The notes beneath the pieces were generated by a model. That model was given only the letters and a program-made list of their open reading frames with translations, searched no databases and was not told the origin of the DNA. A DNA stretch of 64,000 nucleotides from Gemmatimonadaceae bacterium (GTDB lineage: Bacteria > Gemmatimonadota > Gemmatimonadetes > Gemmatimonadales > Gemmatimonadaceae), in contig JAHBVT010000001.1 in the NCBI GenBank assembly GCA_019637355.1, forward strand, positions 620,001 through 684,000. Direction: 5' to 3'. A program made the position numbers and the translations under genes. Position 1 is the first letter of the stretch, and each line of letters opens with the position of its first letter. Of the stretch, positions 14,203 through 49,888 are shown piece by piece.

Positions 14203-14203
14203 T

Positions 14204-19088: not shown

Positions 19089-19120
19089 CGCTGTCCCCTC
19101 CTCAGAAGATGGTTGCTGCG

Positions 19121-19257: not shown

Positions 19258-19358
19258 CGTGCGCGCCGATACCAAGTGGGCCAACCTCGGCAGCAAAGCC
19301 CGGGTTGAATCGGTGCTTGTTCGCGTCGATGTCGTCGTGATAGGTTCTCGAAAGGTCC

Positions 19359-20603: not shown

Positions 20604-20965
20604 GCAGTCCAATCCGGATTCCGCTGTGCTTGCTGGTATTCGCGCTGGTCGGACCGACGCCGATGTCGGCGCAGGATCGGCTGCCTCCGGACAGCAGCGC
20701 GATTCGGCGGGCCCACTGCGCCGCTGCTAGCCTACCCATTGTGAAACAAGCGCTGGACTCGGCCCGTCCTCCGCTGCTGCTCGTCGGGGAGCAGCGCCTC
20801 GGGCCGGTCCGTCGGTTCCCATCTTGCTCTCAAGCTCAGGAGCGAGACGGCTCGCTTGAGATCCGATTCATCCGTCCGTTCGCCGCGCGCGAACTCTATG
20901 GCGAGGCGGGTCGCTTTGGCGCCGTGATGCTCGACAGTTGGCTCCCGACGAGTCGCGCTCCCTGA
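20600..20965 (+). CDS. Small secreted protein with TonB-plug-like segment
   Basis: 121 aa with a signal peptide (IRIPLCLLVFALVGPTPMSAQ). The region PPLLLVGEQRLG ... LEIRFIRPFAARELYGEAGRFGAVML matches the arrangement of SusC/TonB-receptor plug domains (PLxVxDGxxLG ... IESIEVLKxAxAxxLYGxRAAxGVIxI). No barrel follows, so this is a free plug-like domain. It is coupled to the propeller lipoprotein gene (ATG inside the preceding stop region). The similarity is read by eye and the role is unknown. Confidence 0.6.
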   Translation: MSSPIRIPLCLLVFALVGPTPMSAQDRLPPDSSAIRRAHCAAASLPIVKQALDSARPPLLLVGEQRLGPVRRFPSCSQAQERDGSLEIRFIRPFAARELYGEAGRFGAVMLDSWLPTSRAP

Positions 20966-21169
20966 CGAGGTGAGATGAGTCCGCGACTGAGCGACGGCGA
21001 CGGTGTGCTGCGAGCGGAAGTCCTGTGCCTTTGCTCAGCTACCATATCACGAGCTGCGCTTCGGCCGCCGGTGGGAGTGCAGCCGCAGCACTGCGTGCCC
21101 GCATGGCCAGCATTCGACTTGAGGCGGACTCAGTAGTAGAGCGTGAACTACACTGAGCTCTACGAATCG

Positions 21170-21203
21170 GTATAACGTGTGCTTCTGCTGCAAGCGCTCC
21201 CAT
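21170..21203 (+). other. attC 5' arm interrupted by an IS110-family element (attC-6)
   Basis: R'' GTATAAC and L'' GTGTGCTTCTGCTGCAAGCGC are intact and followed by CTCCCATA, the usual position of the central stem. The site is then broken by the insertion sequence. The expected 3' arm does not follow the right end of the element directly. Confidence 0.75.
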
Positions 21204-22465: not shown

Positions 22466-22617
22466 CGCCGCCCCTCCTTCGCAGACCCCAATGCGCCGAG
22501 GCCACGGGCCTCACGAGCGAGCGCGAACAGAAGGATGAGCAGCACCTCGAGCAGCGCAGGCACAACGGAGAACTGCAACAGCGTCAACGCACCTGGGGCT
22601 TGACGCGGGCCGCCGCT
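22466..22617. other. Segment between IS110 and next attC, cassette remnant
   Basis: About 150 nt with no complete gene. On the minus strand a frame from roughly 22586 to 22437 encodes a short hydrophobic peptide (LTLLQFSVVPALLEVLLILL then FALAREARG) with only a TTG start, possibly the remains of a small membrane-protein cassette. This segment separates the interrupted 5' arm of attC-6 from the next 3' arm. Confidence 0.35.
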
Positions 22618-22726
22618 TCACAGAAAGATGCGGTTGCGGGGCCTCGGCAAACTTTTCAACAAGATGGAGCCGAGGCCCCACAACCGCTACACTAGCTGCG
22701 CTCGTCGGCAGCAAGCGTCGTTATGC
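22618..22726 (+). other. attC site lacking a clear 5' arm (attC-7)
   Basis: Stem type B: AGATGCGGTTGCGGGGCCTCGG pairs with CCGAGGCCCCACAACCGC, then L' CGGCAGCAAGC and R' GTTATGC. The region left of the stem only weakly resembles R''-L'', so the 5' boundary is uncertain. The stem matches the site at 33523-33657 almost exactly. Confidence 0.65.
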
Positions 22727-22736
22727 GCCGCCCGCC

Positions 22737-24747: not shown

Positions 24748-24782
24748 GAGGAGTCTGACTCAGGTTAGGAGCTGGCTGGTGC

Positions 24783-24917
24783 GCATAACGTGTGCTTCTG
24801 CTGTGAACGCTTCAATAAGAAGGGTTTGGCGGGGCGTTCGCAACCGACCTAGAGCAATCACGAACGCCCCGCCAAACCCAACCGCACCGCGTTCATCGGC
24901 AGCAAGCGCCGCTATAC
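24783..24917 (+). other. attC site, 135 bp (attC-8)
   Basis: R'' GCATAAC, L'' GTGTGCTTCTGCTG, type A stem AGGGTTTGGCGGGGCGTTCG pairing with CGAACGCCCCGCCAAACCC, L' GGCAGCAAGC, R' GCTATAC. R' carries C for the first T, so recombination may be impaired. Confidence 0.8.
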
Positions 24918-25315
24918 GCCCTCCACGAACTCGCGTGAGACATCCGTGAATCGGGACCGTCTAGGGAGCTAGCGCCCTCAGGCTACCCACATGAAGAGCG
25001 AAGGCTGACGCAAGAGCATCGCAGACTGCGCAGCTGATCCGAGTGAGGAACGATATGCTCGGGTTGCAACAGCGCACTCGCTTTCGCGGTTCCAGCCCGG
25101 CCCTGAGTACCCAAGTTGACACGGTCTGTATCCGAGGGTGAGCTTGGGTGGAGTGCTTGGCGCAGGCCAACGCAACAAGTAATTGCACGGGGGGTAACAA
25201 AGTCGACCGGAAACCTTTGTGCCAAAATGACGTACTGCCACTCGTGTGTAGACACAGACGGAAGCGTGCGTCGAAGTGTGTGCGGCAACTCTTGTAGCGA
25301 GGACTCGATACTTCG
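24918..25315. other. Non-coding stretch after attC-8
   Basis: About 400 nt without a convincing gene. Overlapping minus-strand frames here have no recognisable motif or start context. A TTGACA hexamer at 25116-25121 points towards the downstream lipoprotein gene but no good -10 follows at normal spacing. Base composition is more AT-rich than the flanking chromosome. Confidence 0.4.
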
Positions 25316-26254
25316 ATGTCAAAACTGAGCATTTTGCTCGTGTCGCTTGCTTCCGTCGCGATCAGTTGCGATTCGCCCACCGGGGTTGATCGCGAACTCG
25401 TGGTGCAGCTGGATCCTACGTGGGTCGGCGGCGAGTCGAGTTCGCGCGTCGACTGGAGCACGCGCCAGTTCATCCTGCCTGGCAACGTGATGGCAACTTT
25501 GCCGATTGCCCGAGCTGAGTCAATCGCGACTGCATTGTCCGCGATGCTTGCCGCCGACGCGATCGTAGGCAACATACGCGAGACGCTCGAAGCTGATCGT
25601 GGCGGTCAAATTTCATTCAACGATCTGACTCCGTGTCGGCGCCTGACCTATACGATCTCACCCGCCAATGCCGAAACACCAGGATTGTCATTGTATCAGC
25701 GCAGATCGCTTGCGAGTCAATGGGCGGTGCCACTCTGTAGTTCACGAGGTGACGCTATCATTTCAGTTTCTATCGCAGACGCTCCGTTCAGTGGACAGAT
25801 ATCGGAGGAAGGCATCACGTGGGATAGCGAAGAATCAGCGTCCGGCGCTTTCCGGCTGACTGGAATGCGTCCGACTTATCCAAGCGGACTTCCTCTATCT
25901 CCTGAAGAAGCAGCTAAGTTCCTATATATGCAGTTGGGGACGCGAATAATTCGCGGCCCTGACCTTGTCAGCCAATACGAAGAGACGAACATCGCCCGTT
26001 CGGCACACTGCGGTAGTTGGAGGTTTGTCATCGAGACTTCGCTTGATGTTTCCGTTGCCGACGGCGGAAGTGTGACCCGCGACGCCTTCTATCTCCGCCG
26101 CCATCCTTCGTGCATCTCAGATCAGATTGCTGTATTTGTCGAGCGAGATTCCCAGCCGACGACGTTCTGGAGCTATCGACTTGTAGGAAGTCAATTGGAT
26201 AGCGTCCTTGTCCAGCTGAATCTACCGACCCGATTCACTCGAGTTCTCTTCTAG
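25316..26254 (+). CDS. Lipoprotein of unknown family, cassette gene (paralogue A)
   Basis: 312 aa. Lipobox VSLASVAISC with Cys at residue 18. The body contains GGQISFNDLTPCRRLTYTIS, WAVPLCSSRGDAIISVSIAD, FSGQISEEGITW and GLPLSPEEAAKFLYMQLGTR. The same pattern occurs in the gene at 28830-29756 (KIHADDLQPCPRAYYAVS, WLVGLCYGGTQEVLVAVS, HEGRISAPG, VAPEDAAVTASMRTGT), so the two are paralogues. No known domain was recognised. GC content is lower than in the chromosomal flanks. It runs in the canonical cassette direction and ends just before a long hairpin. Confidence 0.7.
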   Translation: MSKLSILLVSLASVAISCDSPTGVDRELVVQLDPTWVGGESSSRVDWSTRQFILPGNVMATLPIARAESIATALSAMLAADAIVGNIRETLEADRGGQISFNDLTPCRRLTYTISPANAETPGLSLYQRRSLASQWAVPLCSSRGDAIISVSIADAPFSGQISEEGITWDSEESASGAFRLTGMRPTYPSGLPLSPEEAAKFLYMQLGTRIIRGPDLVSQYEETNIARSAHCGSWRFVIETSLDVSVADGGSVTRDAFYLRRHPSCISDQIAVFVERDSQPTTFWSYRLVGSQLDSVLVQLNLPTRFTRVLF

Positions 26255-26339
26255 CGACCTCTGGTCGGCAAGAAGACGTAGTGGGGGTATGAATCGGCCC
26301 GGGTTTGCCGGAGGCTCCACATCGTGAGAGGTTGGAGCC

Positions 26340-27565
<1,226 letters not shown>

Positions 27566-27627
27566 CCGAGTCTCCGGGAATCCCGGGCCGATTCAGTATG
27601 CATATCCCCACTACGTCTGCCTTCCGA

Positions 27628-28827
27628 CTAGGGTACACGCTGCGGAAGTGCGGGTGGTCGGCGCGCGGGTCGTCTCGGACTGGGCGATGTCGGAGGGGTT
27701 CCAGAGCGCAACGACTCCATGCAGTTTGGATCATTTGGCTGACAAGAGCCGGTGTTCACATGAATCATCAGGTCTGCTGAGCCCGTCACCCCTTGCGCGT
27801 CGACGACCGATACTCCGAGGCTCCGAAACGACGCGGGCGTGTCAAAGCTGTGCTGAAACGAACTGCCCGATCCAGCGTACTCTCCGTCGAGGTACCACGA
27901 GAAGGTGAAAGGGGGGGTGCCCGCTGTGGCTGTAGCATCCCACGAGTTAGTCACCCACGGATAAACGTAGGATGGGCCTGAGATGGTGACGGGCACGGGT
28001 ACGTTCACAACCATCGTGCTTGTCAGCGCGATTCCGTCAGCAGTTAGCTGGTCATTCCGGATAGTGTGAGTGCCCACCGTTGAGAATGTTCGCGTAAGCG
28101 TCGCTCCTGTGTCCGCGGTCTGCTGCACTCCGTCGACGAACCAGCGAAAGCGATAGCCAGTGGTGTCCCAATCAGGAATCACGCGCCAGGTGCTCGATGC
28201 GTTCGGCGCGATAATGTTGTAGCCCGTGATGGTGCCAGGCGAGCTTGATATCACAACCGGCGTGCGGACGAAAGCCTCAGAGTACTGCTGCTGCGGAAAT
28301 CCATGGCCGCTCGGGTGCAGGATTCCGGAGAAGTACCGGACGTGCAAGCTGTCCTGCTCCTGCACCTGGCTACTCCACGAGTTGCCGGCTCCCCACGTCA
28401 AAGTTGCGGACGCACGGTAGACATTGTGGAGCGGATTGCCTCCGGGATCCGGATAGTCCGCGATCATGTCGAACGCAAACTCCGCGCTTACAAAGAGGAA
28501 AGTCTCGAGCGGAACCCCCGCGGGGCCCGTCGCATTCTTGATCCAAATTTCTGCCTCTCCCGGAGAGGCGTAGATCCACGGATTCTTTGACTGTGGAACG
28601 TCTAGCGTTACCGCGCCAGTGAGCGTCCGATACATCTGACTCACGACCATTGGACATGACTTGAGCATCGTTGGCAAATCGTACTGGTGCACCTCTGTGC
28701 GCCAGCCAGTAGATCGATTGACTGCGCATGCTTCCTGATAGACAGAGTTGTAGCCGCCTCCGCCTGCGCATGCCGAGAGGAACGCCATTGCGGGAACAAC
28801 GAATAGGTGAGCAGGAGTGAGCCGCAT
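27628..28827 (-). CDS. PKD-type lipoprotein, array gene
   Basis: 399 aa. Lipobox AMAFLSAC (Cys20). Two Ig/PKD-like regions are seen near residues 205-275 (YRFRWFVDGVQQTADTGATL, TFSTVGTHTIRN) and 280-370 (PFTFSWYLDGEYAGSGSSF, VSVVDAQGVTGSADLMIHV). The C-terminal 30 residues are arginine/proline rich and end at the hairpin, so the natural C-terminus may have changed. Its ATG is 2 nt from the stop of the upstream lipoprotein gene, with AGGAG inside that gene, so the pair is an operon. Probably surface exposed; role unknown. Confidence 0.68.
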   Translation of the reverse strand: MRLTPAHLFVVPAMAFLSACAGGGGYNSVYQEACAVNRSTGWRTEVHQYDLPTMLKSCPMVVSQMYRTLTGAVTLDVPQSKNPWIYASPGEAEIWIKNATGPAGVPLETFLFVSAEFAFDMIADYPDPGGNPLHNVYRASATLTWGAGNSWSSQVQEQDSLHVRYFSGILHPSGHGFPQQQYSEAFVRTPVVISSSPGTITGYNIIAPNASSTWRVIPDWDTTGYRFRWFVDGVQQTADTGATLTRTFSTVGTHTIRNDQLTADGIALTSTMVVNVPVPVTISGPSYVYPWVTNSWDATATAGTPPFTFSWYLDGEYAGSGSSFQHSFDTPASFRSLGVSVVDAQGVTGSADLMIHVNTGSCQPNDPNCMESLRSGTPPTSPSPRRPARRPPALPQRVP

Positions 28828-28829
28828 GA

Positions 28830-29756
28830 TCAGTTCTCCTTCGTCACGGGATCAACGTCCGAAACGAAATCAGGCCGTCTACTGAGTGCGGCCGATCGCT
28901 CTGAGGCGCTTGCTCTTCGTAGTGGGGCAAGGCGAACAGTCTCGCGCCCATCGTTCGGTCCGCGAGTGTCGCGCCGGAGTCCAACCGCGGGCTGGCGCCA
29001 TCCTTGAAAGTGCCCAACGAGGACGGACGTGGCCCGTCGAGAAGCACTTCCTTGCGCGGTGCGAAGGAGAACGTCGTTCGCGAGCGAAACATCCCAGACG
29101 GCGTTCGCCGCCGAGAAGGGCCGAGAGCGAAGCAGTAGTCGTGGAGCTGCAGCGACAAGCGTGCCGGTTCTCATCGATGCGGTCACCGCAGCGTCTTCCG
29201 GCGCGACGGGAATGCGACCGCCAACTGGCACGCCGAAGAAGAAGAAGTTGTGAAGCCCGGGAGCAGAGATGCGTCCTTCATGTGTGCGTGCGTCTCCAGC
29301 GAGAGCAGACACTGCCACCAGGACCTCCTGCGTGCCGCCGTAGCAAAGCCCGACGAGCCAACGCGAAGCGGTCATCTTCTGAATCAGTGGATCAATGTGT
29401 TCCGCGGTCGGCTCGTACGCGCTCACCGCGTAGTACGCTCGCGGGCATGGTTGCAGGTCGTCAGCGTGAATCTTCGCGCCACGATCGCGCTCTGCGACTG
29501 GGCGAACGAAGCCGACAGTGCTCCGCCACCAGGCTATGGCGAGCTGCTTCGCATCAGACTCGGAGATCTCGCCCGGTGCCTGCAGGGCGAGCACGAATCG
29601 TCCCTCTGCATCTAACTGGCTCTGTGCCTCGACAGTAAGAGCGGCACGCAATTCACTCTCCGTGGCCGCCGTGGGAAGCTTCGCGTCTGCGCACGCGAGT
29701 ACTCCCGCGAGCTGTAACGCAACCACGGCGGTAGCGTGTCGTCGACTCAACGTCAT
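28830..29756 (-). CDS. Lipoprotein of unknown family (paralogue B)
   Basis: 308 aa. Start at 29756 chosen by a good GGAGG site 4 nt upstream; lipobox ALQLAGVLAC. Shares with the product of 25316-26254 the pattern I-x-x-x-DLxPC-x-R-x-Y, W-x-V-x-LC, G-x-I-x-x-x-G, P-E-x-A-A and GT near the same positions. Two conserved Cys (in QPC and GLC) may form a disulfide. The C-terminal third (RRATSVLVGHFQGWRQPAV onwards) is arginine rich and does not match the paralogue, so it may be frameshifted. Leads a two-gene operon with the PKD lipoprotein. Confidence 0.62.
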   Translation of the reverse strand: MTLSRRHATAVVALQLAGVLACADAKLPTAATESELRAALTVEAQSQLDAEGRFVLALQAPGEISESDAKQLAIAWWRSTVGFVRPVAERDRGAKIHADDLQPCPRAYYAVSAYEPTAEHIDPLIQKMTASRWLVGLCYGGTQEVLVAVSALAGDARTHEGRISAPGLHNFFFFGVPVGGRIPVAPEDAAVTASMRTGTLVAAAPRLLLRSRPFSAANAVWDVSLANDVLLRTAQGSASRRATSVLVGHFQGWRQPAVGLRRDTRGPNDGRETVRLAPLRRASASERSAALSRRPDFVSDVDPVTKEN

Positions 29757-30313
29757 AGCGCCTCCAATAGGGTAGAGAGTTTGCAAGGCCGCATGAACAA
29801 GAATGACGTCTGCTTCTGACAGAGTGACGCGCGAGCGAGACGGCAGATGTCCGCCTTAAGTCAGATTATGCCTTCTCCGCCAAGATCTTGTCGCCTTGCA
29901 TCACGAGGATGAATGACGGGCGCGGAAGGCGCAAGTAGCCTAGGTCAATACTGCGAAGGCGAGAGCGGCGCTGCCGAATGCAAGCGGGACCGTCAAGGGC
30001 GCGGCGTAGGGACGGCGCTGTCGCGTCAATCGAGGTGCTGGCGTCTAATCGTGCAACAAGTTGAGCGGCCAGAAGCGTCTGGGGCCCAATTGTCACAAGT
30101 GGTGGCGCTACGACTTGCGTCTGCACCAAGTCACTGGCACCTGTGCGCCGAACGCACGATGATACACACACGATGGGTCGAGTAGACGAGAGGAACTGCG
30201 GCCCGACGAGAGGCCGTGCTCGCGGGTGCGACCTGAGTCAGCTGAAGGCCATATTTGTGAACGGCACAGCGTTCGTGCTATTGCCCTGTGTCTGCGGTGA
30301 ACCCGCGGCGTGC
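29757..30313. other. Gap with possible attC remnant and an unsupported small ORF
   Basis: At 29803-29872 there is GACGTCTGCTTCTG on the left and CGGCAGATGTC ... GATTATGCC on the right, which resembles a heavily decayed attC. A minus-strand frame at 29866-30171 (101 codons, ending LRLPRPSFILVMQGDKIL) has no start context or family and is not called as a gene. Nothing else was found. Confidence 0.35.
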
Positions 30314-30451
30314 GTATAACGTGTGCTTCTGCTGTGAACGCTTCAATAAGAAGCAGTTGTGGGGCGGCCGCTAGGCCGTCCCATGCTTCAACAACCGGCC
30401 GCCCCACAACTGCATCCGCACCGCGTTCATCAGCAGCAAGCGTCGTTATGC
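30314..30451 (+). other. attC site, 138 bp (attC-9)
   Basis: R'' GTATAAC, L'' GTGTGCTTCTGCTG, stem AGTTGTGGGGCGGCCG pairing with CGGCCGCCCCACAACT, L' CAGCAGCAAGC, R' GTTATGC. The stem is intermediate between types A and B. It opens a run of seven well-spaced sites, each separated by one small gene. Confidence 0.88.
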
Positions 30452-30461
30452 GCCGCGCACG

Positions 30462-30902
30462 CTAGCGACGCGGGCACTCGCTGCCTGGCTGGAGTGCGAT
30501 GCGAAGCGTGTCAGAACGATTGGGCTGCAACGTGAGCGTGCGCACGACGGGCTCGTAGCCGAGGCGGCGGATGCGCACTGTGACGCTTCCGGCGGGCAGG
30601 GAATCGAGCAGGAACCCGCCAGTCGAGTCGCCCCATGCATGCCGCTCATACGGTGCGATGACGGATGCTTGCGCCATCGTCACCGCGCCGTTCGATCGCG
30701 CGTCGGTCACGGTGCCGAGCAATCGAGCCAAGCCGGACGCAAGTGGTGCGGCCGCTGGCAGTACCGCCGGCGCGGACGGGATAGGCTCCGCGAGACACTG
30801 CGGCGGCATATCAAGCATTGGATCGAATCCGGGCGTGCGTACGCAACTCGGAATGCCGAGCAGTACGAAGCTGTAGACTGCTAGGATGTGTCTAGTGCGC
30901 AT
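30462..30902 (-). CDS. Carboxypeptidase-regulatory-like lipoprotein, start codon inside attC
   Basis: 146 aa. Lipobox LAVYSFVLLGIPSC (Cys20), then a CarboxypepD_reg-like beta-sandwich: LLGTVTDARSNGAVTMAQAS, STGGFLLDSLPAGSVTVRIR, GYEPVVRTLTLQ. The only ATG before the signal peptide (30902) lies within the R'' box of the next attC (GCATAAC read in reverse as GTTATGC). An AGAAG from the L'' arm lies about 8 nt upstream and could act as a weak ribosome site. Runs opposite to attC polarity. Probably an outer-membrane-anchored binding protein. Confidence 0.7.
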   Translation of the reverse strand: MRTRHILAVYSFVLLGIPSCVRTPGFDPMLDMPPQCLAEPIPSAPAVLPAAAPLASGLARLLGTVTDARSNGAVTMAQASVIAPYERHAWGDSTGGFLLDSLPAGSVTVRIRRLGYEPVVRTLTLQPNRSDTLRIALQPGSECPRR

Positions 30903-31033
30903 AACGTGAGCTTCTGCTGTGAACGCTCCAATAAGAGGGGTTGGGCGGGGCCTCCGCAACCATCCTAGGGCATCCCGGAGGCCCCGCCCAACCCACTCCG
31001 CACCGCGTTCATCGGCAGCAAGCGGCGTTATAG
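30899..31033 (+). other. attC site, 135 bp (attC-10)
   Basis: R'' GCATAAC, L'' GTGAGCTTCTGCTG, type A stem GGGTTGGGCGGGGCCTCCG pairing with CGGAGGCCCCGCCCAACCC, L' CGGCAGCAAGC, R' GTTATAG. Well preserved. R'' contains the start codon of the gene at 30462-30902. Confidence 0.88.
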
Positions 31034-31083
31034 CGCGAGTCATCGGCGGCGCGCGGTCGGTCGGAGCGCGCGACAGCCTGCGG

Positions 31084-31296
31084 CTACCTTGAACGCCGGT
31101 CGAGCGTTCCGTCGAGTGACCGGCGCCGTTGGCGCCAGATCCAGAACCAGCCGCCCATCGGCAGAAGGGCGACACCGAGCGTTCGCCACCCGCCTGGCGT
31201 GGGGTCGAGCGCGACATTTCCCAAGGCCGCGAGGCAAAGCGCGACGCAGAAGATCCACATACCGAGTGCTGTGCGTTCAGAGAGTCGCGTAACCAT
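31084..31296 (-). CDS. Small two-helix membrane protein, cassette gene
   Basis: 70 aa. Two hydrophobic segments, MWIFCVALCLAALGNVAL and TLGVALLPMGGWFWIW, joined by a Pro/Gly loop, with a basic C-terminus (RQRRRSLDGTLDRRSR). AGAGGA lies about 5 nt before the ATG. The start is 28 nt from the next attC. No family recognised. Confidence 0.6.
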   Translation of the reverse strand: MVTRLSERTALGMWIFCVALCLAALGNVALDPTPGGWRTLGVALLPMGGWFWIWRQRRRSLDGTLDRRSR

Positions 31297-31323
31297 GGAG
31301 TCCTCTTGTCGAACAGGTGGTCG

Positions 31324-31458
31324 CTATAACGTATGCTTCTGCTGTGAACGCTCCAATAAGAAGGGTTTGGCGGGGCGTCCGCAACCGGCCTAGGCCATCA
31401 CGGGCGCCCCGCCAAACCCAAACCGCACCGCGTTCATCGGCAGCAAGCGTCGTTATCG
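31324..31458 (+). other. attC site, 135 bp (attC-11)
   Basis: R'' CTATAAC, L'' GTATGCTTCTGCTG, type A stem AGGGTTTGGCGGGGCGTCCG pairing with CGGGCGCCCCGCCAAACCC, L' CGGCAGCAAGC, R' GTTATCG. Contains the TAA stop of the following minus-strand gene. Confidence 0.88.
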
Positions 31459-31773
31459 CGCCGCGTCGCGAATCGATCCCAGCCATGTGGCGGCGGCAAA
31501 GGCTGTTCGCACGTCGGCGACTGCGGCGCGCGCGCTGGGAGAGTCAGTCGCAGCAACAAGGAAGCGGCTGTTGTCGCCGAACATCTCAAGAATGATGAAG
31601 TCTGTATCGCGGTAGCGGAACTCGCAGAAGTCATCGGGCGAAGGGCGGAACGGGCGATACCGACGCGTGAGGGAGGCGCCGGCCAACTGGGAAGGCACGC
31701 GGCACGCAGCGAGGCGGCCGCCCAAACCGTTTGGCACCTCGAAGCTGAGGTCGGAAACATCCCAAATCTTCAT
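31453..31773 (-). CDS. Small soluble protein of unknown family, stop codon inside attC
   Basis: 106 aa, beginning MKIWDVSDLSFEVPNGLGG and containing YRPFRPSPDDFCEFRYRD and FIILEMFGDNSRFLVAATDS. It looks like a compact alpha/beta protein without a signal peptide. The TAA stop is read from the R' box of attC-11. The start at 31773 is 23 nt from attC-12. No family could be assigned. Confidence 0.6.
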   Translation of the reverse strand: MKIWDVSDLSFEVPNGLGGRLAACRVPSQLAGASLTRRYRPFRPSPDDFCEFRYRDTDFIILEMFGDNSRFLVAATDSPSARAAVADVRTAFAAATWLGSIRDAAR

Positions 31774-31796
31774 TGCGACGAGATAGTCGGTTGTCG

Positions 31797-31893
31797 CGAT
31801 AACGTGTGCTTCTGCTGTGGACACTCCAATAGAACGCGCGGGCGCAGCCCGCGCCATCCATACCGTGGCCATCAGCAGCAAGCGTCGTTAGCC
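31797..31893 (+). other. attC site, 97 bp (attC-12)
   Basis: R'' CGATAAC, L'' GTGTGCTTCTGCTG, short type C stem CGCGGGCGCAGCCCGCG, L' CAGCAGCAAGC, R' GTTAGCC (perfect consensus). Nearly identical to attC-14. R' supplies the stop codon of the next minus-strand gene. Confidence 0.88.
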
Positions 31894-32436
31894 GGCACCC
31901 GTCCGCCGCGCCGCCCGTCGTTCGCGGATCCAGCGCCGCACCGAGTCGGCGTCGGCGGCGAGCCGAGTGGCGGTTGAGGCCAGCGAGTCCTGCGCGCCCG
32001 CGAGCGAATCCGCGGGCGACAGCGGTCGGAGCCAGGCGATCGAATCGCCCTCAAAGCTTACGGCCGCGCCCCGCGAGCTGGAGACCACGCCGCTCAGCGG
32101 CGCGGCGTAGTGCTCCGTGCGCTCTTCGGCGCAGCGGAGGGTGTCGTCGCGGAACGCGAAGTGCTGCCGGAGTCGACCGGTCTCGCCGTAGAACGTGACG
32201 CGGTAGCGCTCGATGCCTGAGGCCATCCGGTCAAACTCGAGCGAGGCGCCCTCCGCAGACATCCCTTCGAGCGAGTAGGTCTCGACAGCCACGCGCGTCG
32301 TGTCGTCGAGGAGCGCCAGGCAGCCTTCCGCGACGCGCTGCTCAGTCAACTCTTCCGCGCTCGCGGCGGGGTCGGGCGACGGGGTGCACGCAAGCCCGGC
32401 GAGCCAGGTAAGAATCGCGGCAGTGCGACGAGCCAT
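31888..32436 (-). CDS. Small lipoprotein, cassette gene, stop codon inside attC
   Basis: About 182 aa. Start MARRTAAILTWLAGLAC at 32436 was chosen because GGAGG lies 9 nt upstream; an ATG at 32445 is the alternative. Lipobox LAGLAC. The mature part has helix-rich ends (AEELTEQRVAEGCLALLDD and RLAADADSVRRWIRERRAAR) and a central beta segment (ERYRVTFYGETGRLRQHFAF). A Cys pair (GCLALL, LRCAEE) may form a disulfide. The TAA stop comes from R' of attC-12. Function unknown. Confidence 0.62.
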   Translation of the reverse strand: MARRTAAILTWLAGLACTPSPDPAASAEELTEQRVAEGCLALLDDTTRVAVETYSLEGMSAEGASLEFDRMASGIERYRVTFYGETGRLRQHFAFRDDTLRCAEERTEHYAAPLSGVVSSSRGAAVSFEGDSIAWLRPLSPADSLAGAQDSLASTATRLAADADSVRRWIRERRAARRTGAG

Positions 32437-32460
32437 GCGTTCCATCCTCCGCGCGTGTCC

Positions 32461-32595
32461 GGCTAACGTGTGCTTCTGCTGCAAGCGCTCCCGTAAAATG
32501 CGGTTGTGGGGCCGCTGCAATCCTTCCATAAAGTGAAGCAGCGGCCCCACAACCGCTACCGCACCCGCGCTTGACGGCAGCAAGCGTCGTTAGGC
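32461..32595 (+). other. attC site, 135 bp (attC-13)
   Basis: R'' GGCTAAC and R' GTTAGGC, both perfect consensus boxes. L'' GTGTGCTTCTGCTG, type B stem GCGGTTGTGGGGCCGCTGC pairing with GCAGCGGCCCCACAACCGC, L' ACGGCAGCAAGC. Best-preserved site of the array and the one used to define the arm asymmetry. Confidence 0.93.
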
Positions 32596-32630
32596 CGCGC
32601 GCGACCTTCTCTGCGCAGCGCCACTTGGGT

Positions 32631-33134
32631 CTATCGCTTCTTCCCGCCGACACCAGGCGCCGCCGTGATCTGCCGCATCCACGCGGCGATCTGGCGTGCG
32701 TCGAGTTCCTTCTCGGACCTGAGCTCTACACCACGCGTTGCCTTGCCCATCGCCACCGGGGTCACTGGCGGTACGGGCTTGAGAGAGACGCCGTTCACGA
32801 ACATGAGCTTGACATGATTGACAAATCCTCCGCAACAAAAGCACCAACCGTCCCCAACGCCATAGTACGCCATGCCCCACTTCACTGCGCGTTGCAGGCC
32901 CGGGAGCGTCTTAGCCGCCAGCGCGTCGACTCGCTCCGCGATGTCGCGTTGCGGCTGCGGCAAGCTGGCGATGTACGCTAAGACCGGCGCGTCACCGTCC
33001 GCCGCCTTCGCGGGGCTGGCCTTGCCGGTGAGCATGGATTTCTTCAACGAGGGCGATTTACCAGATGCCGTCTTGCGCTTGGCCGCCTTCGGGGCGGAGA
33101 CTGCGGCGCTCCTGCCTGTCTTCTTGGCGGGCAT
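32631..33134 (-). CDS. DUF1801-family protein, cassette gene
   Basis: 167 aa. A lysine/alanine-rich N-terminal tail of about 45 residues precedes a DUF1801 (YdhG-like) domain: VLAYIASLPQPQRDIAERVD, LPGLQRAVKWGMAYYGVGD, HVKLMFVNGVSLKPVPPVT, GVELRSEKELDARQIAAWM. The fold is of the YdhG/iron-chaperone-like superfamily, with no firm biochemical role. A GAGGAG ribosome site lies upstream. Runs opposite to attC polarity, starting 32 nt from attC-14. Confidence 0.85.
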   Translation of the reverse strand: MPAKKTGRSAAVSAPKAAKRKTASGKSPSLKKSMLTGKASPAKAADGDAPVLAYIASLPQPQRDIAERVDALAAKTLPGLQRAVKWGMAYYGVGDGWCFCCGGFVNHVKLMFVNGVSLKPVPPVTPVAMGKATRGVELRSEKELDARQIAAWMRQITAAPGVGGKKR

Positions 33135-33165
33135 ACTGTGCTCTCGCTCCTCAACGGCGGGGTCG

Positions 33166-33262
33166 GCCTAACGTGAGCTTCTGCTGCGGACACTCCAATA
33201 GAACGCGCGGGCGCAGCCCGCGCCATCCATACCGTGGCCGTCGGCAGCAAGCGTCGTTATCG
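33166..33262 (+). other. attC site, 97 bp (attC-14)
   Basis: R'' GCCTAAC, L'' GTGAGCTTCTGCTG, type C stem CGCGGGCGCAGCCCGCG followed by CCATCCATACC, L' CGGCAGCAAGC, R' GTTATCG. Twin of attC-12, so one of these two cassette ends probably arose by duplication or shares an ancestry. Confidence 0.88.
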
Positions 33263-33277
33263 CGCTTGCCGCGTTCG

Positions 33278-33502
33278 TCAGTCGATCCGAAACCGGAGGC
33301 GTTGGCGTCGCAGGCCTTCTCGGAGGAGCCGGATGCCCTTGGGCCCGACGCCGTGGAGCGCGGCGAGCTCAGGCTCGGACCAGCGCGCGAGCTGGGTCAT
33401 GGTGCGGATGCCGGCATGGTGCAGCGCCCGCAGGACCGGCCCACCGACCCCGTGGGGGAATGCCTCTTCGTTCGGATGTGTCGTCGAGCGTGGCTTGGTC
33501 AT
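33278..33502 (-). CDS. Small helix-hairpin-helix (RpoA-CTD-like) protein
   Basis: 74 aa. GVGGPVLRALHHAGIRTMTQLA and LAALHGVGPKGIRLLREGL form the two helix-hairpin-helix units seen in small RNA-polymerase-alpha-CTD-like or DNA-binding proteins. Probably binds DNA; the target is unknown. It fills a very small cassette (about 260 nt), opposite to attC polarity, starting 20 nt from attC-15. Confidence 0.8.
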   Translation of the reverse strand: MTKPRSTTHPNEEAFPHGVGGPVLRALHHAGIRTMTQLARWSEPELAALHGVGPKGIRLLREGLRRQRLRFRID

Positions 33503-33522
33503 GCGTCAATGCGTCGCGGTCG

Positions 33523-33657
33523 CGATAACGTGTGCTTCTGCTGCGAGCGCTCCCATAAAATGCGGTTGTGGGGCCTCGGCAAACCTTACAAAAGATGAAG
33601 CCGAGGCCCCACAACCGCTACACTAGCCGCGCTCGTCGGCAGCAAGCTTCGTTATAG
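33523..33657 (+). other. attC site, 135 bp (attC-15)
   Basis: R'' CGATAAC, L'' GTGTGCTTCTGCTG, type B stem TGCGGTTGTGGGGCCTCGG pairing with CCGAGGCCCCACAACCGC, L' CGGCAGCAAGC, R' GTTATAG. Last complete site of the array. Confidence 0.9.
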
Positions 33658-33719
33658 CGCACGCGCCAATGTTTCCTGACGTTCAATGTGCAAACGCGAA
33701 GTCAGCGCGTCCGAGCGCA

Positions 33720-34466
33720 TCACGATTCGGCGGAGTCATCATCGTCTCCATCATCGGGGAGTCCCTCAAAGTGTGCGAAGCGTCTCTTCGCGAGTGACTG
33801 TAGGCGCTCACTCTGCACAAGAAGAACTCGACGCAAGCCAGGTGCTACCTTTCTCTCGCTGATGATCTGCGCGAGACGGGCGAGCGTAGCGGCTCGACGA
33901 GCGATGCGGACGTCTGGATGGCTGCGAAGTGCGATGACGCTGTCGCTTACGATTCGTCCGCGGAACGACGCTGGCAACTTCGCCTTCTTTTGCGCTGCAG
34001 GGACCTTTTCGTTGAGCACCGCGCTGAACTCGGAGTTCTCGAGGACCTTGATGTACACGGTAGCTTCGAGTCGGTCGAGCAACTCCTTCACCGCTGGGTC
34101 GTTGGTCTTCTTGCCTTCGAGATCCGGAAGGGGATAGAGCTCAACCTCGTACACTTCGAAAGGATCGAGCACACTCATCGCCACAGCGTCAGTTCGCTGA
34201 TTCGTTAGGTGCCTGCCGACGCGCCCGCTGAGCTTCTCGCGTGTCTGTCCGACGTAAATGGGCTCGCCGTCGTAGTCGTAGAACACGTAGACGCCAAACG
34301 TGTAGGAACCCAGTCGAACCTGCTTGCCTGAGATTGGATCCTTGACCTGTTGGTCAAGAAACGCCTTGAGGGCTTTGCGAAGCTCTGCTGTATCCAGTGG
34401 CGGATGCGAGACACTGTCGCTGATCGGAGCGCTGTTCTGAACGGGCTGCTTGCTCTTGCTTCCCAT
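33720..34466 (-). CDS. GIY-YIG nuclease, likely restriction endonuclease (Eco29kI-like)
   Basis: 248 aa. GIY-YIG core FGVYVFYDYDGEPIYVGQTR with Tyr60 and Tyr71, then Arg82 and His86 in GRVGRHLTNQ, Glu134 in RLEATVYIK and a candidate Asn152. This Y-Y-R-H-E-N set matches the catalytic residues described for R.Eco29kI, a GIY-YIG restriction enzyme. The N-terminal 50 residues and the acidic tail (PDDGDDDDSAES) are outside the core. It starts 1 nt after the methyltransferase stop, so the two form an operon. The Eco29kI relation is inferred from motifs and context. Confidence 0.78.
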   Translation of the reverse strand: MGSKSKQPVQNSAPISDSVSHPPLDTAELRKALKAFLDQQVKDPISGKQVRLGSYTFGVYVFYDYDGEPIYVGQTREKLSGRVGRHLTNQRTDAVAMSVLDPFEVYEVELYPLPDLEGKKTNDPAVKELLDRLEATVYIKVLENSEFSAVLNEKVPAAQKKAKLPASFRGRIVSDSVIALRSHPDVRIARRAATLARLAQIISERKVAPGLRRVLLVQSERLQSLAKRRFAHFEGLPDDGDDDDSAES

Positions 34467-34467
34467 C

Positions 34468-35619
34468 TCACCCCACCGCCATGAGAGAACGAGTCAACAA
34501 CGGCTTGAAGAGATTCCGTGCTAGGTGACGAACCACCGGGACCGCAACGCCGTCACCGGCGAGGTGATACGCGGCGTTGTAGTTGCTCGGAAGCTTGTAC
34601 TTGTCCGGTAGTCCCATCAGCCGGGCTACTTCACGCGGCGACAAAAGTCGACTGCGAACCGACCTGCCTTCGACAACCAGTAGGGTTTGCCTGCTCGACC
34701 CACCGCCAGGCGTGCGCAGGCAGCCTGCGATACCGTCAAATCGCACTTCGGCACGCTGAATTTTCTCTCCGGTCGGAGCGACTCGAGTCCGACGGTAGAT
34801 CGTGCCGACTTGACGTTGCCCGGATTTCATCGCGTCCTTCACTTTCGCCGCGTTGAGCGGCGACATCATTGCGAGCAGCTGAGCGGTCTTCTCTTCTGAA
34901 TTCCACTCCACGCCGCTCGGGTTTTCCTCAATGATCTCAGAGAGACTCTTTCGAGCGCCTCGTGGCATCGGGACCTTCCACCAAATCCACTTCTGTTTCA
35001 GGTTGGACGGTAGCGACTCGAATGCGGCGACGACGGCCTGTGAATGCCAAGCGTTCACAGGAGCGGCAGACACAAGCTCTTCCGGCACATTGGCAGACTC
35101 GTGAACGCCAACGATGAAGAGCCTCGGCCGAGACTGTGGCAAGAAGTGCACGGCATCGATGACCATTGCCCCGACACTGTAACCCTCTTCCACGAGTGCC
35201 CCAACGATGGAGGCAAAGTCGCGCCCACGATTCGAGGTGAGCGTGCCATAGACGTTCTCGAGAGCGACGACGCTCGGAGCGCGCTCCTGTTCGTTCAGTT
35301 GTGCGATGATGCGCCAGAAGGACCAAAACGTCCCTGACCGCCCGCCCTTGAGGCCGGCTCCGTTCCCTGCAAGCGACAAGTCCTGGCACGGGAACGAGGC
35401 CCATGCCAAGTCTGCGTCTTCAGTGATCGAGTTCGCGCTCAGCTTGCCAACGTCACCGAGAACGAGCTCATCGGCCGGGCTGAAGTTCGAGCTGTACGCC
35501 GCCGCCTTCGTCCGATCTATGTCGTTGGCGAGCAAGCACTTCCAATCCGCTCCGAGCCCAAGGCGCGCCATTCCCGCACCGGCGAAGAACTCCAGAAATG
35601 TGAACGTGGGTTCGGGCAT
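34468..35619 (-). CDS. DNA (cytosine-5) methyltransferase
   Basis: 383 aa from ATG at 35619. Motif I FLEFFAGAGMARLGLG, catalytic Cys78 in ASFPCQDLSLAG (motif IV), ENV at 121-123 (motif VI), QSRPRLFIVG (motif VIII), and the C-terminal RLMGLPDKYKLPSNYNAAYH with GDGVAVPVV (motifs IX-X). The target-recognition region lies around residues 200-300. Order methyltransferase then nuclease on one transcript fits a type II restriction-modification system carried by a cassette. Recognition sequence cannot be read. Confidence 0.93.
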   Translation of the reverse strand: MPEPTFTFLEFFAGAGMARLGLGADWKCLLANDIDRTKAAAYSSNFSPADELVLGDVGKLSANSITEDADLAWASFPCQDLSLAGNGAGLKGGRSGTFWSFWRIIAQLNEQERAPSVVALENVYGTLTSNRGRDFASIVGALVEEGYSVGAMVIDAVHFLPQSRPRLFIVGVHESANVPEELVSAAPVNAWHSQAVVAAFESLPSNLKQKWIWWKVPMPRGARKSLSEIIEENPSGVEWNSEEKTAQLLAMMSPLNAAKVKDAMKSGQRQVGTIYRRTRVAPTGEKIQRAEVRFDGIAGCLRTPGGGSSRQTLLVVEGRSVRSRLLSPREVARLMGLPDKYKLPSNYNAAYHLAGDGVAVPVVRHLARNLFKPLLTRSLMAVG

Positions 35620-35742
35620 ATGAATGCGGCGGAGGGCGGAAGAAGCCTGAGAGAAGTACGGCCGAATATAGGCCGAAGTCCCGTTAGCTGCAATCATTGG
35701 ATTGCATACCGAACCAGACTAACGCGTGCGTACTCCAGAGCT

Positions 35743-35973
35743 TCAACCTTCCGGAGGGTGCAGCGTCGAGTCCTTCGCGAAGACGTAGAACTCGCCCTCA
35801 CCGACCACGTGCCGTCGGTAGAAATCTGCGTTGCTGAGCATCTTGGCGGCCTCTCCCGGATTGGTCACGGGGAGAACGGGTGGCCAAGTGATGACTTCCT
35901 GGCCGATGAGATGATCGGGAACCGCTTCCCATCGACCACCCTCTAGAATGATGAAAGCTCTTCGCTGCGCCAT
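35743..35973 (-). CDS. Small protein of unknown family, last cassette gene
   Basis: 76 aa, starting MAQRRAFIILEGGRWEAVPD and containing PGEAAKMLSNADFYRRHVVG and GEFYVFAKDSTLHPPEG. Mixed alpha/beta, no signal peptide. It lies upstream of the methyltransferase on the same strand with about 120 nt between. Its start is 15 nt from the truncated last attC, the same geometry as the other reversed cassettes. Could be a controller or an unrelated passenger. Confidence 0.58.
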   Translation of the reverse strand: MAQRRAFIILEGGRWEAVPDHLIGQEVITWPPVLPVTNPGEAAKMLSNADFYRRHVVGEGEFYVFAKDSTLHPPEG

Positions 35974-35987
35974 GACTCTCTCGGTCG

Positions 35988-35997
35988 CTATAACGTG
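35988..35997 (+). other. Truncated attC (R'' only), right end of array (attC-16)
   Basis: CTATAACGTG matches R'' and the next bases of good sites (compare attC-11), but the sequence then changes to GATTATCCG and no L'', stem or R' follows. This marks the deletion or rearrangement point at the right end of the array. Confidence 0.55.
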
Positions 35998-36210
35998 GAT
36001 TATCCGAAAAACGAACACAAACTCCCCTGCTTATTCCCCCGACTATCCTTGCAGGGAACTCACACTATCCCAAACCTCACTCCACGCTAACCCCCTGCGC
36101 AAGCACGATTTGTGCCGCACGCCTAGGCCATTTCGTACCCGGCTATCTTACCGCGCTATGCTGCAGGCAACTCGCACTATTCCATCCACATCCTTCGACC
36201 TCACCAAGCC
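35998..36210. other. AT-richer spacer with imperfect direct repeats
   Basis: No gene seen. Two imperfect copies of a GCAGGxAACTCxCACTATxCC unit lie at about 36050-36071 and 36162-36183, 112 nt apart. Composition is clearly lower in GC than the chromosome to the right. It lies between the end of the cassette array and a terminator, and may be the foreign side of the array junction. Confidence 0.45.
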
Positions 36211-36247
36211 AGAAAAGGGGCACGGACCATCGGTCCGCGCCCCTTCT
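36211..36247 (-). terminator. Intrinsic terminator of the M28 peptidase operon
   Basis: Read on the minus strand: GGGGCGCGGACC, a GAT loop, GGTCCGTGCCCC, then TTTTCT. A 12-bp GC-rich stem with a T-run about 40 nt after the peptidase stop codon. It ends the minus-strand transcription unit of 36284-41541. Confidence 0.85.
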
Positions 36248-36283
36248 CGCCCTTCCATATCTTTTCAGCCCAGCCGAAAAACC

Positions 36284-37930
36284 CTACCGCGTAGCCTGCG
36301 GCGTCCGCCGCGTCGCCGGATTACAATCCCGCCACTGCCCCGGCTGCCCACCCGGACCAGCAGGCAACGGATCCATAATGTCACGCGGCATCCGCTCCGG
36401 GTCCTCGCTGGCCAGGTACGCCAGCATCGCCACGAGCGTCGCGTTGTTCTTCAGGTCGTACTCCACAACCTTATCGTACGTGTCGCGGTCGGTGTGCCAG
36501 GTGGTGAAGCTGTAATCCCAGCTGAGCGCGCCAAGGTTGAACGCGGGCGCCTTGTGACACACGAAGCTGGCGTGGTCGGTGCCGCCGGTGGCCTGCCCAC
36601 CAGTGGGGTTGAAGCGGATCCACTGGGTGATCTCGCTGGGCACCTGCCCGAGATACCGCTCGATCCGCTGCGCCGCGCCAGGGAACGGACCGGCGCTGAG
36701 ATTGACGACGCGGCCGGTGCCGTTGTCCTGATTCCACAGCGCCTGCAGGCCACGCACGACTTCCGGATGATCCTCGCTGAACGCGCGCGAACCGTTGAGG
36801 CCCTGCTCCTCGCCGCTCCACAAGCCGACGAGAATGGTGCGCTTGGGATTGGGATACACCTGACGCAAGATGCGCAGCGCCTCCATCATCGTGATGGAGC
36901 CGGTGCCGTTGTCGGTCGCGCCAGACGACGAAGACCACGAGTCGAAGTGCGCCGAGAGGAGCACGTACTCGTCTGGCTTCTCGCTGCCGCGGATCTCGGC
37001 GACGACGTTGAACACGGGACGCTCGCCGACGATCTCGCTGTCGGTGAAGGCCCGCACGCGCGGGCCCTGGTTGTTGCGCGCGAGACGGAACAGCAGCCCG
37101 TAGTCCTCGCAGCCGACGGCGAACGCGGGCAGGGTCTGCTGCGGCGACCCGAACACCTTCTGGATGCCGGGATAGTTGCTGAACTGGTGGGTGAAGACGC
37201 CGAGCGCGCCGGCATCCTTGAGCTTCTGCCACACGTTGCGGCCGCCGCTCATCGCGACGTTGAGCTGGTTCCACTCCTGCTGCATCGCTGCCTGCGCCGC
37301 AGTCACGCGGTCGCGCTCCTCAGGCGTCGCGAACTCGGCCCACTGGCCGGGCGAACGGCAACTGAGCCGCGGTACGCTCATCAGGAAGAACTTGCCGCGC
37401 ACGTTGGGCAACCAAGCATCAAAGGCCTCAGGCGTGCTGATGCCCTCAGGATACGCGATGACCTGGCCCTCGACAGGACGGCGCATCCCGGGGCTGTAGG
37501 TGAGCGCGTAGGCCTCGAGCGAACGCACGCGCGGGGTGAGCAGGTCGATGTGGGTGACGCCACGCTTCCAGCCGAGCCAGGTGCCGTACTGCTCCTTGCG
37601 CGCGGTCACGCCCCAGCGCTGGAAGGTGCTCACGGCCCAGTTCTGCGCCGCATCCATATGCGGGGACGCGGTCATCCGCTGCCCGAGCGAGTCCATCAAC
37701 TGCTGCGCGAGGCTCATCGCCTGCGAACGGTTCATCCCCTCGTCCCACATCCGCTGGATGATGGGATCGGAGGACGGCGAGCGACGGATGTACGTGGGGA
37801 CGCTGTTGACGTCGATGGGATCGGCCATCGGATTGCGCGCCCCCATCGGGGGACGGGCCTGGCCGGCCGGCTGCTGCGCGGCGAGCAGCGGCGCGACGAG
37901 CGCGACCGCTAGCAATGCTCTGACGAACAC
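36284..37930 (-). CDS. Exported M28-family zinc aminopeptidase
   Basis: 548 aa from a GTG start at 37930 preceded by AAGGAG; signal peptide VFVRALLAVALVAPLLAAQ. A PA-like insertion occupies the middle. Metal site: SAHFDSW (His and Asp), GATDNGTGS (bridging Asp), GEEQGLNGS (catalytic Glu and ligand Glu) and TDHASFVCH (last His region). Cleaves peptides outside the cytoplasm. It follows the ABC permease gene by about 35 nt and is the last gene of the operon. Confidence 0.9.
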   Translation of the reverse strand: MFVRALLAVALVAPLLAAQQPAGQARPPMGARNPMADPIDVNSVPTYIRRSPSSDPIIQRMWDEGMNRSQAMSLAQQLMDSLGQRMTASPHMDAAQNWAVSTFQRWGVTARKEQYGTWLGWKRGVTHIDLLTPRVRSLEAYALTYSPGMRRPVEGQVIAYPEGISTPEAFDAWLPNVRGKFFLMSVPRLSCRSPGQWAEFATPEERDRVTAAQAAMQQEWNQLNVAMSGGRNVWQKLKDAGALGVFTHQFSNYPGIQKVFGSPQQTLPAFAVGCEDYGLLFRLARNNQGPRVRAFTDSEIVGERPVFNVVAEIRGSEKPDEYVLLSAHFDSWSSSSGATDNGTGSITMMEALRILRQVYPNPKRTILVGLWSGEEQGLNGSRAFSEDHPEVVRGLQALWNQDNGTGRVVNLSAGPFPGAAQRIERYLGQVPSEITQWIRFNPTGGQATGGTDHASFVCHKAPAFNLGALSWDYSFTTWHTDRDTYDKVVEYDLKNNATLVAMLAYLASEDPERMPRDIMDPLPAGPGGQPGQWRDCNPATRRTPQATR

Positions 37931-37965
37931 GGACTTCTCCTTGCAAGTGTGGTGGAACGGTTCCC

Positions 37966-39213
37966 TCAAACCTTGACGCTGAGTCCATCCGCCAACGAAC
38001 TACGATACGCCTTCCAGGCCGGCAGCATTCCCACGAGCGTGCCGGCGACGACAACCAATCCAAGGAATCCCCACGCGGTGGCGCTGAGTGGCGCCATCGC
38101 GAGCGCGAGTCCGTAGCGCGACTCGATCGCGCCGGACGCCAGCGCCAAACCAAGGTACACCAACAGGACGCCGGCCACCGCGCCGCTGAGCGCGAGCAGC
38201 GCCGACTCGCTCACGAGCAGGGCGGAGATGGTGCGGGGTCCGGCGCCGACGGCGCGCAGCACGGCCATCTCGCGGCGTCGGCTCTCGAGCGAGGCATACA
38301 GGGCCACGCACATCCCGATCAAGCCGACGAGCAGCGTGAACAGGCTCACCAGCCGCAGCGCGGCCTCGGCGTTGCCGACGACGTCCCAGAGCTGCGCCAA
38401 GGCTACGCCAGGCACGATGGCAGTGAGCGGGTCGACGATGTCCTCGTTCATCTCGCGCTGCAGGCGCAGCGTCTCGAAGCGGTTCTTGGTGCCGACGAGG
38501 AAGGCGGTGATCGGCGGCTCGGCGTCGTGCAGGTGGTCGTCCGGCGGACCCATCGGCAAGCCGCCGCGATGCGCCTCGGCCTCGTGCATCGCCTCCAGCC
38601 CCTCGAGCGTCACGTACAGCGCGCGGTCGATGGGCGTCACGGTGCGATTGATGATGCCGACGACCTTGAACGGATGCACGTCGTGCTCGGCGAAACTGAC
38701 GTCGGCGATGCCGTGGGCGAGCACGACCTCGCTGCCCAGCGTGTAGCCGAGCCGCCGCGCCACCTCGTGGCCGATGGCGACTTCGTCGTTGCCGCTGGGT
38801 GCGCGGCCCTCGGCGAAGGTCACACCCTGGTCGCGGAAGCGGTAGCGCTCGAAGAACGCGCCCGTCGTGCCGATGACGCGGAAGCCTTTATGCGAATCGC
38901 CGAGCGAGTAGGGAATCGTCCACGCCACGGCGGGATGCGCACTGTAGCGTTGGTAGGTGGCCCACTGCACGCTGCCGGAGGGCGTGGCCATCCCGAAGAC
39001 AGTGCTGAGCAGGACCTGTGTGGTGCCGCCACGCGCGCCGACGATGAGATCGGTGCCGCGGATGGTGCCGGCGAACGAGTCACGCACGCCGCTGCGCAGG
39101 TGCTCGATGCCCACCAGCAGCGCGACGCTGAGCGCGATGCTGGCGACGGTGAGCGCCGAGATGGCGACGCGGGCGCGCAGGGACCGCGCGGCGAGCCCGA
39201 GCAAGAACATCAC
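37966..39213 (-). CDS. ABC transporter permease (MacB/LolC type)
   Basis: 415 aa (or 414 from the ATG at 39210). One N-terminal helix (RVAISALTVASIALSVALLVG), a large periplasmic MacB_PCD-like domain of about 250 residues, and a C-terminal FtsX domain with three helices (FTLLVGLIGMCVALYASLES, LALSGAVAGVLLVYLGLALA, WGFLGLVVVAGTLVGMLP). This layout is that of mechanotransmission transporters that act on lipoproteins or outer-membrane substrates. Overlaps the ATPase stop codon. Confidence 0.9.
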   Translation of the reverse strand: MMFLLGLAARSLRARVAISALTVASIALSVALLVGIEHLRSGVRDSFAGTIRGTDLIVGARGGTTQVLLSTVFGMATPSGSVQWATYQRYSAHPAVAWTIPYSLGDSHKGFRVIGTTGAFFERYRFRDQGVTFAEGRAPSGNDEVAIGHEVARRLGYTLGSEVVLAHGIADVSFAEHDVHPFKVVGIINRTVTPIDRALYVTLEGLEAMHEAEAHRGGLPMGPPDDHLHDAEPPITAFLVGTKNRFETLRLQREMNEDIVDPLTAIVPGVALAQLWDVVGNAEAALRLVSLFTLLVGLIGMCVALYASLESRRREMAVLRAVGAGPRTISALLVSESALLALSGAVAGVLLVYLGLALASGAIESRYGLALAMAPLSATAWGFLGLVVVAGTLVGMLPAWKAYRSSLADGLSVKV

Positions 39214-49882: not shown

Positions 49883-49888
49883 GTTAAT

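Follow-up and report, generated by a model that had tools for sequence, protein, structure and literature searches.

A putative Type II restriction–modification cassette at an attI-like site distant from the single integron integrase gene detected in a Gemmatimonadaceae genome

A restriction–modification gene pair in an integron cassette

We analyzed a stretch of 64,000 nucleotides (the window) from the genome of a Gemmatimonadaceae bacterium (positions 620,001 to 684,000 of contig JAHBVT010000001.1, assembly GCA_019637355.1), in which a gene for a GIY-YIG nuclease adjoins a gene for a C5-cytosine DNA methyltransferase. The two genes form a predicted Type II restriction–modification (R–M) pair, which occupies the first cassette of an integron array, at an attI-like site without an adjacent integrase gene (intI). 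We consider it likely that a distant integrase inserted this cassette in trans and can still insert cassettes at several sites in the genome. The architecture is supported by the sequence, whereas recombination in trans is what we infer from position, sequence and recurrence.

The nuclease is encoded at window positions 33720–34466 on the minus strand (248 residues; Pfam PF01541, E 2e-5, above the cut-off) and the methyltransferase at 34468–35697 on the same strand (409 residues; PF00145, DNA_methylase, E 2.7e-51; TIGR00675 also above the cut-off). A single base (34467) separates the two open reading frames (ORFs). Read along the minus strand, the first gene of the cassette is a 76-residue ORF (35743–35973) with no assigned function family, followed by the methyltransferase and then the nuclease. 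For 12 of the 13 loci compared, alignments of the methyltransferase with its relatives start at residues 25–36, the remaining one starting at residue 12, and from these starts the true initiation codon is probably the ATG at 35619. The guanine and cytosine (GC) content of the R–M pair is 59.1%, compared with 69–70% in the host stretches of the window, and its composition can be considered foreign on this basis; the remaining array has a GC content of 64.5%.

A consensus fold and a covariance model (R1) were derived from nine attC sites, eight in the window and one in the array that carries intI, and all counts given here include these nine. The sites share a hairpin of 23 pairs, in 6 of which both partners are changed in some sequence. 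The attC site of the R–M cassette (33520–33660, plus strand) adopts this consensus fold and scores 132 bits with model R1, in whose training set it is included. It is located 3' of the nuclease gene, has an unpaired spacer and is the only attC of the cassette, inside which no other attC arm or attC match was found. The rest of the window array, extending over 13535–33265, comprises 11 further matches to model R1, all on the plus strand (at 13535, 17907, 19118, 22595, 24780, 30311, 30896, 31321, 31794, 32458 and 33163). Near-identical attC arms are likewise confined to one strand of the window, with 9 left arms and 14 right arms, one of the right arms being outside the array (at 9934, with 4 mismatches).

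The orientation of the array can be read from the hairpins. In the attC consensus, two single unpaired bases, 7 columns apart, are found in the 3' arm of the plus strand. Published attC sites have their extrahelical bases on the R''–L'' arm (PMC2727003), and this arm corresponds to the 3' arm of the attC bottom strand. Therefore, the recombinogenic (bottom) strand is the plus strand, and cassette genes are expected to read in the direction of the minus strand, on which the R–M genes are located. An impression by eye that the attC sites read in the plus orientation was rejected, because in the folds it is the 3' arm of the plus strand that carries the extrahelical bases.

Measured from crossover to crossover, the whole cassette covers 33529–35993 of the minus strand (2465 bp). 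Both edges, at 33528/33529 and 35993/35994, show G^TT, and the genes run in the cassette direction. The edge at 35993/35994 is without an attC; its sequence corresponds to the one that separates intI from the first cassette in the integrase-bearing array. A preliminary description of this DNA had reported a GIY-YIG nuclease and a C5 methyltransferase with a shared strand and 1-nt spacing, in agreement with our ORFs and Pfam matches, and had proposed that the pair is an integron cassette. The attC fold, the G^TT at both edges and the gene direction all concur, and we assign the pair to an integron gene cassette on this sequence evidence. The same description had called the unit attC-bounded; this applies to the side at 33520–33660 only, since the other edge lacks an attC and resembles the intI-linked site.

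An attI-like site without intI

The attI-like site at the head of the window array spans 35990–36185 on the minus strand, with a core at 35991–36002 that reads TAATCCACG^TTA on that strand. The genome contains one integrase-strength match to an integron integrase, at C1:783979–785010, approximately 128 kb from the window site. Its ORF is open and matches TIGR02249 above the cut-off, with an E value of 7.5e-122. Between the 3' end of intI and the first cassette of the intI-linked array lies the sequence AACGTGGATTATACGCAAAACGAACAC, and the window boundary at 35992–36018 is the same sequence with two differences. A 27-nt pattern spanning both sites has 4 copies in the genome (0 for the reversed control). 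The attI-like core occurs in 5 places, once beside intI and four times without it, and the fifth copy heads a sparse attC cluster at 1.867 Mb. Over 192 bp the window site is 88–92% identical to two other copies without intI, while its identity to the intI-linked copy, measured over 158 aligned positions, is 60%.

In the fetched stretches of the genome, model R1 detects 122 distinct attC sites, which lie on one strand within each array. They are distributed over arrays of 17, 12 (the window array), 27 (the array with intI) and 50 sites, with 12 more on two small contigs and 4 elsewhere. Of the 12 sites on small contigs, 9 are on C2 (8.8 kb) and 3 on C3 (3.8 kb); both contigs are probably pieces of the arrays left unplaced in the assembly. 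With its integrase gene, adjoining attI-like site and 27 attC matches, the intI-bearing locus is a chromosomal integron. The window array alone is not a complete integron, as the window contains no intI and its attI-like site is 128 kb away from that gene. Having 12 attC matches and no intI in the window, it falls under the definition of a CALIN, a cluster of attC sites without an integrase.

Recurrence of the core in the genus

We searched for the 12-nt core TAATCCACGTTA in 11 IntI-bearing genomes of the genus. It is present in 5 copies in the genome under study, 3 in G128 (a one-contig genome), 2 in G395 and 1 in G188. These 11 copies in 11 genomes compare with about 0.08 expected per genome (assuming 68% GC) and with none for the reversed pattern. 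Four of the copies are found within 1.5 kb of intI and seven are not, and two other species of the genus carry copies without intI. An attC lies 321–2330 nt from the core, on the correct side and strand, at all seven intI-less copies and at three of the four intI-linked ones.

Some of these sites share their surroundings between species. An array headed by the intI-less site at 3.12 Mb in G128 has 22 attC matches within the 20 kb fetched. The flank of this site is orthologous to that of our array at 23 kb (78% over 4.7 kb). Similarly, the intI-less sites at 1.34 Mb in G128 and on contig 13 of G395 have a common flank (83% over 9.9 kb). The gene flanking the window array is present at this locus in relatives. 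It is a host gene outside the array (36284–37969, minus strand), whose product we take to be an M28-type peptidase; the alignments to these relatives stop at window position 36282 or later.

On balance, we lean towards a polycentric chromosomal integron in this genus, where one intI would act in trans on several attI platforms, each building its own array. There would be five such platforms in this genome, three in the one-contig relative and two in a third genome, with some of them conserved in locus across species.

Evaluation of the proposed insertion in trans

Several observations weigh against insertion in trans by the distant integrase, or against a functional cassette. The three intI-less copies of the attI-like site are 85–92% identical to each other over 192 bp and 60–64% identical to the intI-linked copy (158 aligned positions), and they may be relics or have a separate origin. 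The assembly consists of 3 contigs and is 96.5% complete, and its missing part may contain a second intI. The core is absent from 7 of the 11 IntI-bearing genomes, and in G188, where it is linked to intI, the nearest detected attC is about 12 kb away. The 27-nt pattern is confined to this genome (1 of 17 genomes of the genus and 1 of 179 of the family), and only the 12-nt core recurs. A scan for sigma-70-like promoters over 33400–36350 found 0, with 0.8 expected in shuffles, and none of the PADLOC models fits the nuclease (best E 0.042). Finally, G128 has the flanking gene at the window-array locus, with no attC in the fetched stretch and no core. Taken together with the orthologous flanks described above, this indicates that some intI-less sites are old and common to species and that the window site is not shared with G128.

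The divergence from the intI-linked copy also favors an alternative in which the window array is a degraded integron or a copied head that already lacked intI. Its attI would be a fossil, nothing would recombine, and the R–M genes would be stranded. The weaker attC sites in the distal part of the window array, where three of the first four score 38–47 bits, are in line with such decay. We nevertheless regard this explanation as unlikely. No intI remnant is observed near the three main intI-less sites (the best tblastn match in the window has an E value of 0.52 and lies 23 kb from the site, and no match was listed for the other loci) or within 1.5 kb of the other four. Degradation would also imply that, in three genomes, intI was lost repeatedly or a head already lacking it was copied. 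Moreover, in most arrays the first cassettes adjoin the attI copies and have good attC sites.

Off-target insertion of the cassette at an ordinary genomic G^TT site, as described for attG (PMC12444791) and for secondary sites (PMC10127599), would make the boundary something other than attI; it is very improbable here, since four array heads, the window boundary and the intI-linked head among them, fit the 27-nt pattern, and the similarity to two array heads over 192 bp is not expected of a random target.

Insertion in trans thus remains our preferred explanation, and the following course of events is proposed. The R–M pair would have been captured as one 2.5-kb cassette. IntI acts on the folded bottom strands of attC sites to excise or capture cassettes, which it inserts at attI (PMC11023631, PMC9024848), and the integrase 128 kb away most likely placed the cassette by attC × attI recombination in trans. 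Several attI-like sites could receive cassettes from this one integrase and the R–M cassette directly abuts the site, so that it is probably the most recent insertion at this site. The methyltransferase would mark a short motif on host DNA with 5-methylcytosine, and the GIY-YIG nuclease would cut DNA without this mark, restricting phage and plasmid DNA. Cutting, methylation, specificity and expression of the pair are predictions.

The restriction–modification family

Relatives of the nuclease were sought in one genome per species (84,980 species according to the description of the tool), and the best 80 of 378 were analyzed. A methyltransferase gene is located beside the nuclease gene, on the same strand and within about 1 kb, in 79 of these 80 loci, and the sole locus without one, L049, begins at a distance of 223 nt from the end of a contig. 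It is because of this linkage that we classify the genes as a predicted Type II R–M pair. The linkage, together with the confinement of the attC arms to one strand, takes the association beyond chance. Of 14 additional loci, taken from plasmids, from a phage record and from the phylum, 13 have the methyltransferase, and the last is a weak nuclease match.

The R–M relatives are located on conjugative, mobilizable and small plasmids. Of the 394 other genomes in the phylum sample, 5 have a match (weak in one case), all outside the genus, and the pair looks mobile and sporadic in its distribution. It is a common kind of defense pair, and no characterized member of this GIY-YIG/C5-methyltransferase family was found. 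Model R1 gave 0 matches in 98 loci around R–M relatives elsewhere, covering 67 of the best 80, a result that says little given that the model is tuned to the genus. A Vsr-like gene is observed in 35 of the 80 fetched loci (L028–L107), as expected where 5-methylcytosine deaminates. There is no Vsr among the three ORFs of the window cassette.

The preliminary description had suggested the 76-residue gene as a possible partner of the R–M genes, which the relatives do not support. This gene is found near none of the best 80 R–M relatives. Among 395 genomes, 4 others contain a relative of its own product, which is weak in one case (E 0.009), and the 2.4–3.2 kb fetched around each contain no nuclease or methyltransferase match. 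The protein has no family in Pfam, PADLOC, NCBIfam or PHROGs, and a plasmid search gave no match. A role as antitoxin or controller was rejected, given that the linkage is not conserved and no family was found.

In the nuclease, the active site is defined by Tyr60, Tyr71, Arg82, His86, Glu134 and Asn152. All six positions are invariant in an alignment of 13 sequences (the window protein and 12 relatives) and in an alignment of 40. This conservation bears on whether the methyltransferase could be a solitary enzyme of the housekeeping type, next to an inactive or unrelated nuclease. Such C5 enzymes exist, for instance ScmA of Caulobacter (PMC12907096); with the catalytic positions kept in the window nuclease and its 12 aligned relatives, and the linkage in 79 of 80 loci, we give this possibility hardly any weight.

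Comparison with Eco29kI and other GIY-YIG nucleases

An AlphaFold2 model of the nuclease (predicted local distance difference test score, pLDDT, 85.7) comprises an N-terminal GIY-YIG core, approximately residues 29–155, and C-terminal helices at residues 183–234. Its best structural match is the GIY-YIG domain of UvrC, over residues 29–155 (Z 8.8). Other GIY-YIG enzymes match weakly, among them two restriction nucleases with structures that are alike in the core, PD-T4-3 (Z 5.3–5.4 over about 90 residues) and Hpy188I (Foldseek E 1.1). The helices at 183–234 match generic helical chains only, with no clear relative.

The preliminary description had read a Y-Y-R-H-E motif in the nuclease, had taken the genes for an R–M system and had placed this system near Eco29kI. 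The motif is complete, with Asn152 in addition, and the R–M assignment is sustained by the PF01541 match, the conserved catalytic set and the linkage with the methyltransferase. The Y-Y-R-H-E-N order is, however, general to GIY-YIG nucleases, and the placement near Eco29kI does not stand. Eco29kI and the window nuclease have in common the superfamily, the order of the catalytic residues, the R-x3-H spacing and a methyltransferase partner, here an adjoining C5 enzyme. The active site of Eco29kI consists of Tyr49, Tyr76, Arg104, His108, Glu142 and Asn154 (PMC1952068). The Eco29kI catalytic set proposed as a test is found in the window nuclease with the same six residues in the same order, but with a distance between the two tyrosines of 11 residues, compared with 27 in Eco29kI (PMC1952068).

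The sequence comparisons separate the two systems further. The nuclease is absent from the matches of PF09517 (RE_Eco29kI) up to an E value of 1, and the whole genome is also without a match. PF09517 matches are present in 8 of 395 phylum genomes at E 0.001, 7 of them above the cut-off. In the loci of these eight genomes, no match to the nuclease has an E value below 0.11, and identity to the methyltransferase is 22–30% in seven of the eight. Eco29kI was not among the matches of the nuclease model to structures (Foldseek, VIA-align 2), an absence that excludes nothing, nor was its entry among those of a profile search of PDB sequences, for which there was no control that the database includes one. 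With the nuclease alone as query, the search of PDB sequences returned no match. Membership of the Eco29kI family was rejected for lack of a PF09517 match and for the differing sequences of PF09517-type loci, and an Eco29kI-type system recognizing CCGCGG is extremely improbable.

Relation to known integrons

Defense genes in integrons, R–M systems included, have already been published (PMC12444791, PMC12409362). The sedentary chromosomal integrons of Vibrio and Xanthomonas resemble the system described here in having intI, a long array separated by attC sites, and defense genes (PMC12409362, PMC12444791). In contrast to these, the genome studied here has arrays at several loci of one chromosome, the majority of which lack intI and have an attI-like head of their own. 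The window array resembles a CALIN in its attC sites and in the lack of intI nearby, and differs from one in being headed by an attI-like site. CALINs are said to be mobilizable in trans (PMC12444791). Integrons typically have one attI, close to the integrase, and IntegronFinder is described as not detecting attI outside class 1 (PMC9024848). Because detection is limited to class 1, an attI-like head of a CALIN-type array would go unseen. Our literature searches, which were weak and left subscription papers mostly outside, found no paper on intI-less arrays headed by attI and no account of several attI-headed arrays sharing one integrase. An arrangement in which one distant integrase seemingly serves several capture sites is unusual.

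Integron arrays without an integrase are usually interpreted as decayed. If the attI sites of such arrays work with a distant integrase, not one but several first positions are available to the cell, and some of the arrays filed as CALIN are live. Defense cassettes could then, in a polycentric integron, hold the first position at several loci simultaneously. The nuclease family is widespread and its window member is missed by the PADLOC models, suggesting that defense surveys based on these models may overlook the nuclease half of the pair.

Array positions and neighboring features

The four arrays on C1 of this genome (G000) are located at 3.12–0.02, 0.63–0.66, 0.75–0.78 and 2.54–2.60 Mb, and dnaA at 2.98 Mb. 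The mean GC skew is +0.018 (15 samples) on one arm and −0.016 (20 samples) on the other, with 5 samples in neither and a noisy signal. For an origin inferred in this way, the attC bottom strand lies on the lagging-strand template in each of the four arrays. This is the opposite of the strand preference stated for chromosomal integrons (PMC11023631). A repeat of about 32 bp occurs in several tandem copies around the start of intI, close to its 5' end (L005, ~11010–11140), and repeated short tblastn matches are also observed.

Two cassettes neighboring the R–M cassette encode a DUF1801 protein (32631–33134, minus strand) and a 74-residue helix-hairpin-helix protein (33278–33502, minus strand). 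Further into the array, a 546-residue UvrD-like helicase is encoded at 22737–24377 (minus strand), with GajB as its best PADLOC match (E 3.5e-40). The array also contains an IS110-type transposase gene (21211–22362, plus strand) and two abutting ORFs (26340–27565, plus strand) that by eye have the look of an IS3-type transposase, with an ALIL pseudoknot at 26618–26734 within the pair. Elsewhere in the window, a tandem repeat of GGATGAC units is found at 49873–49966.
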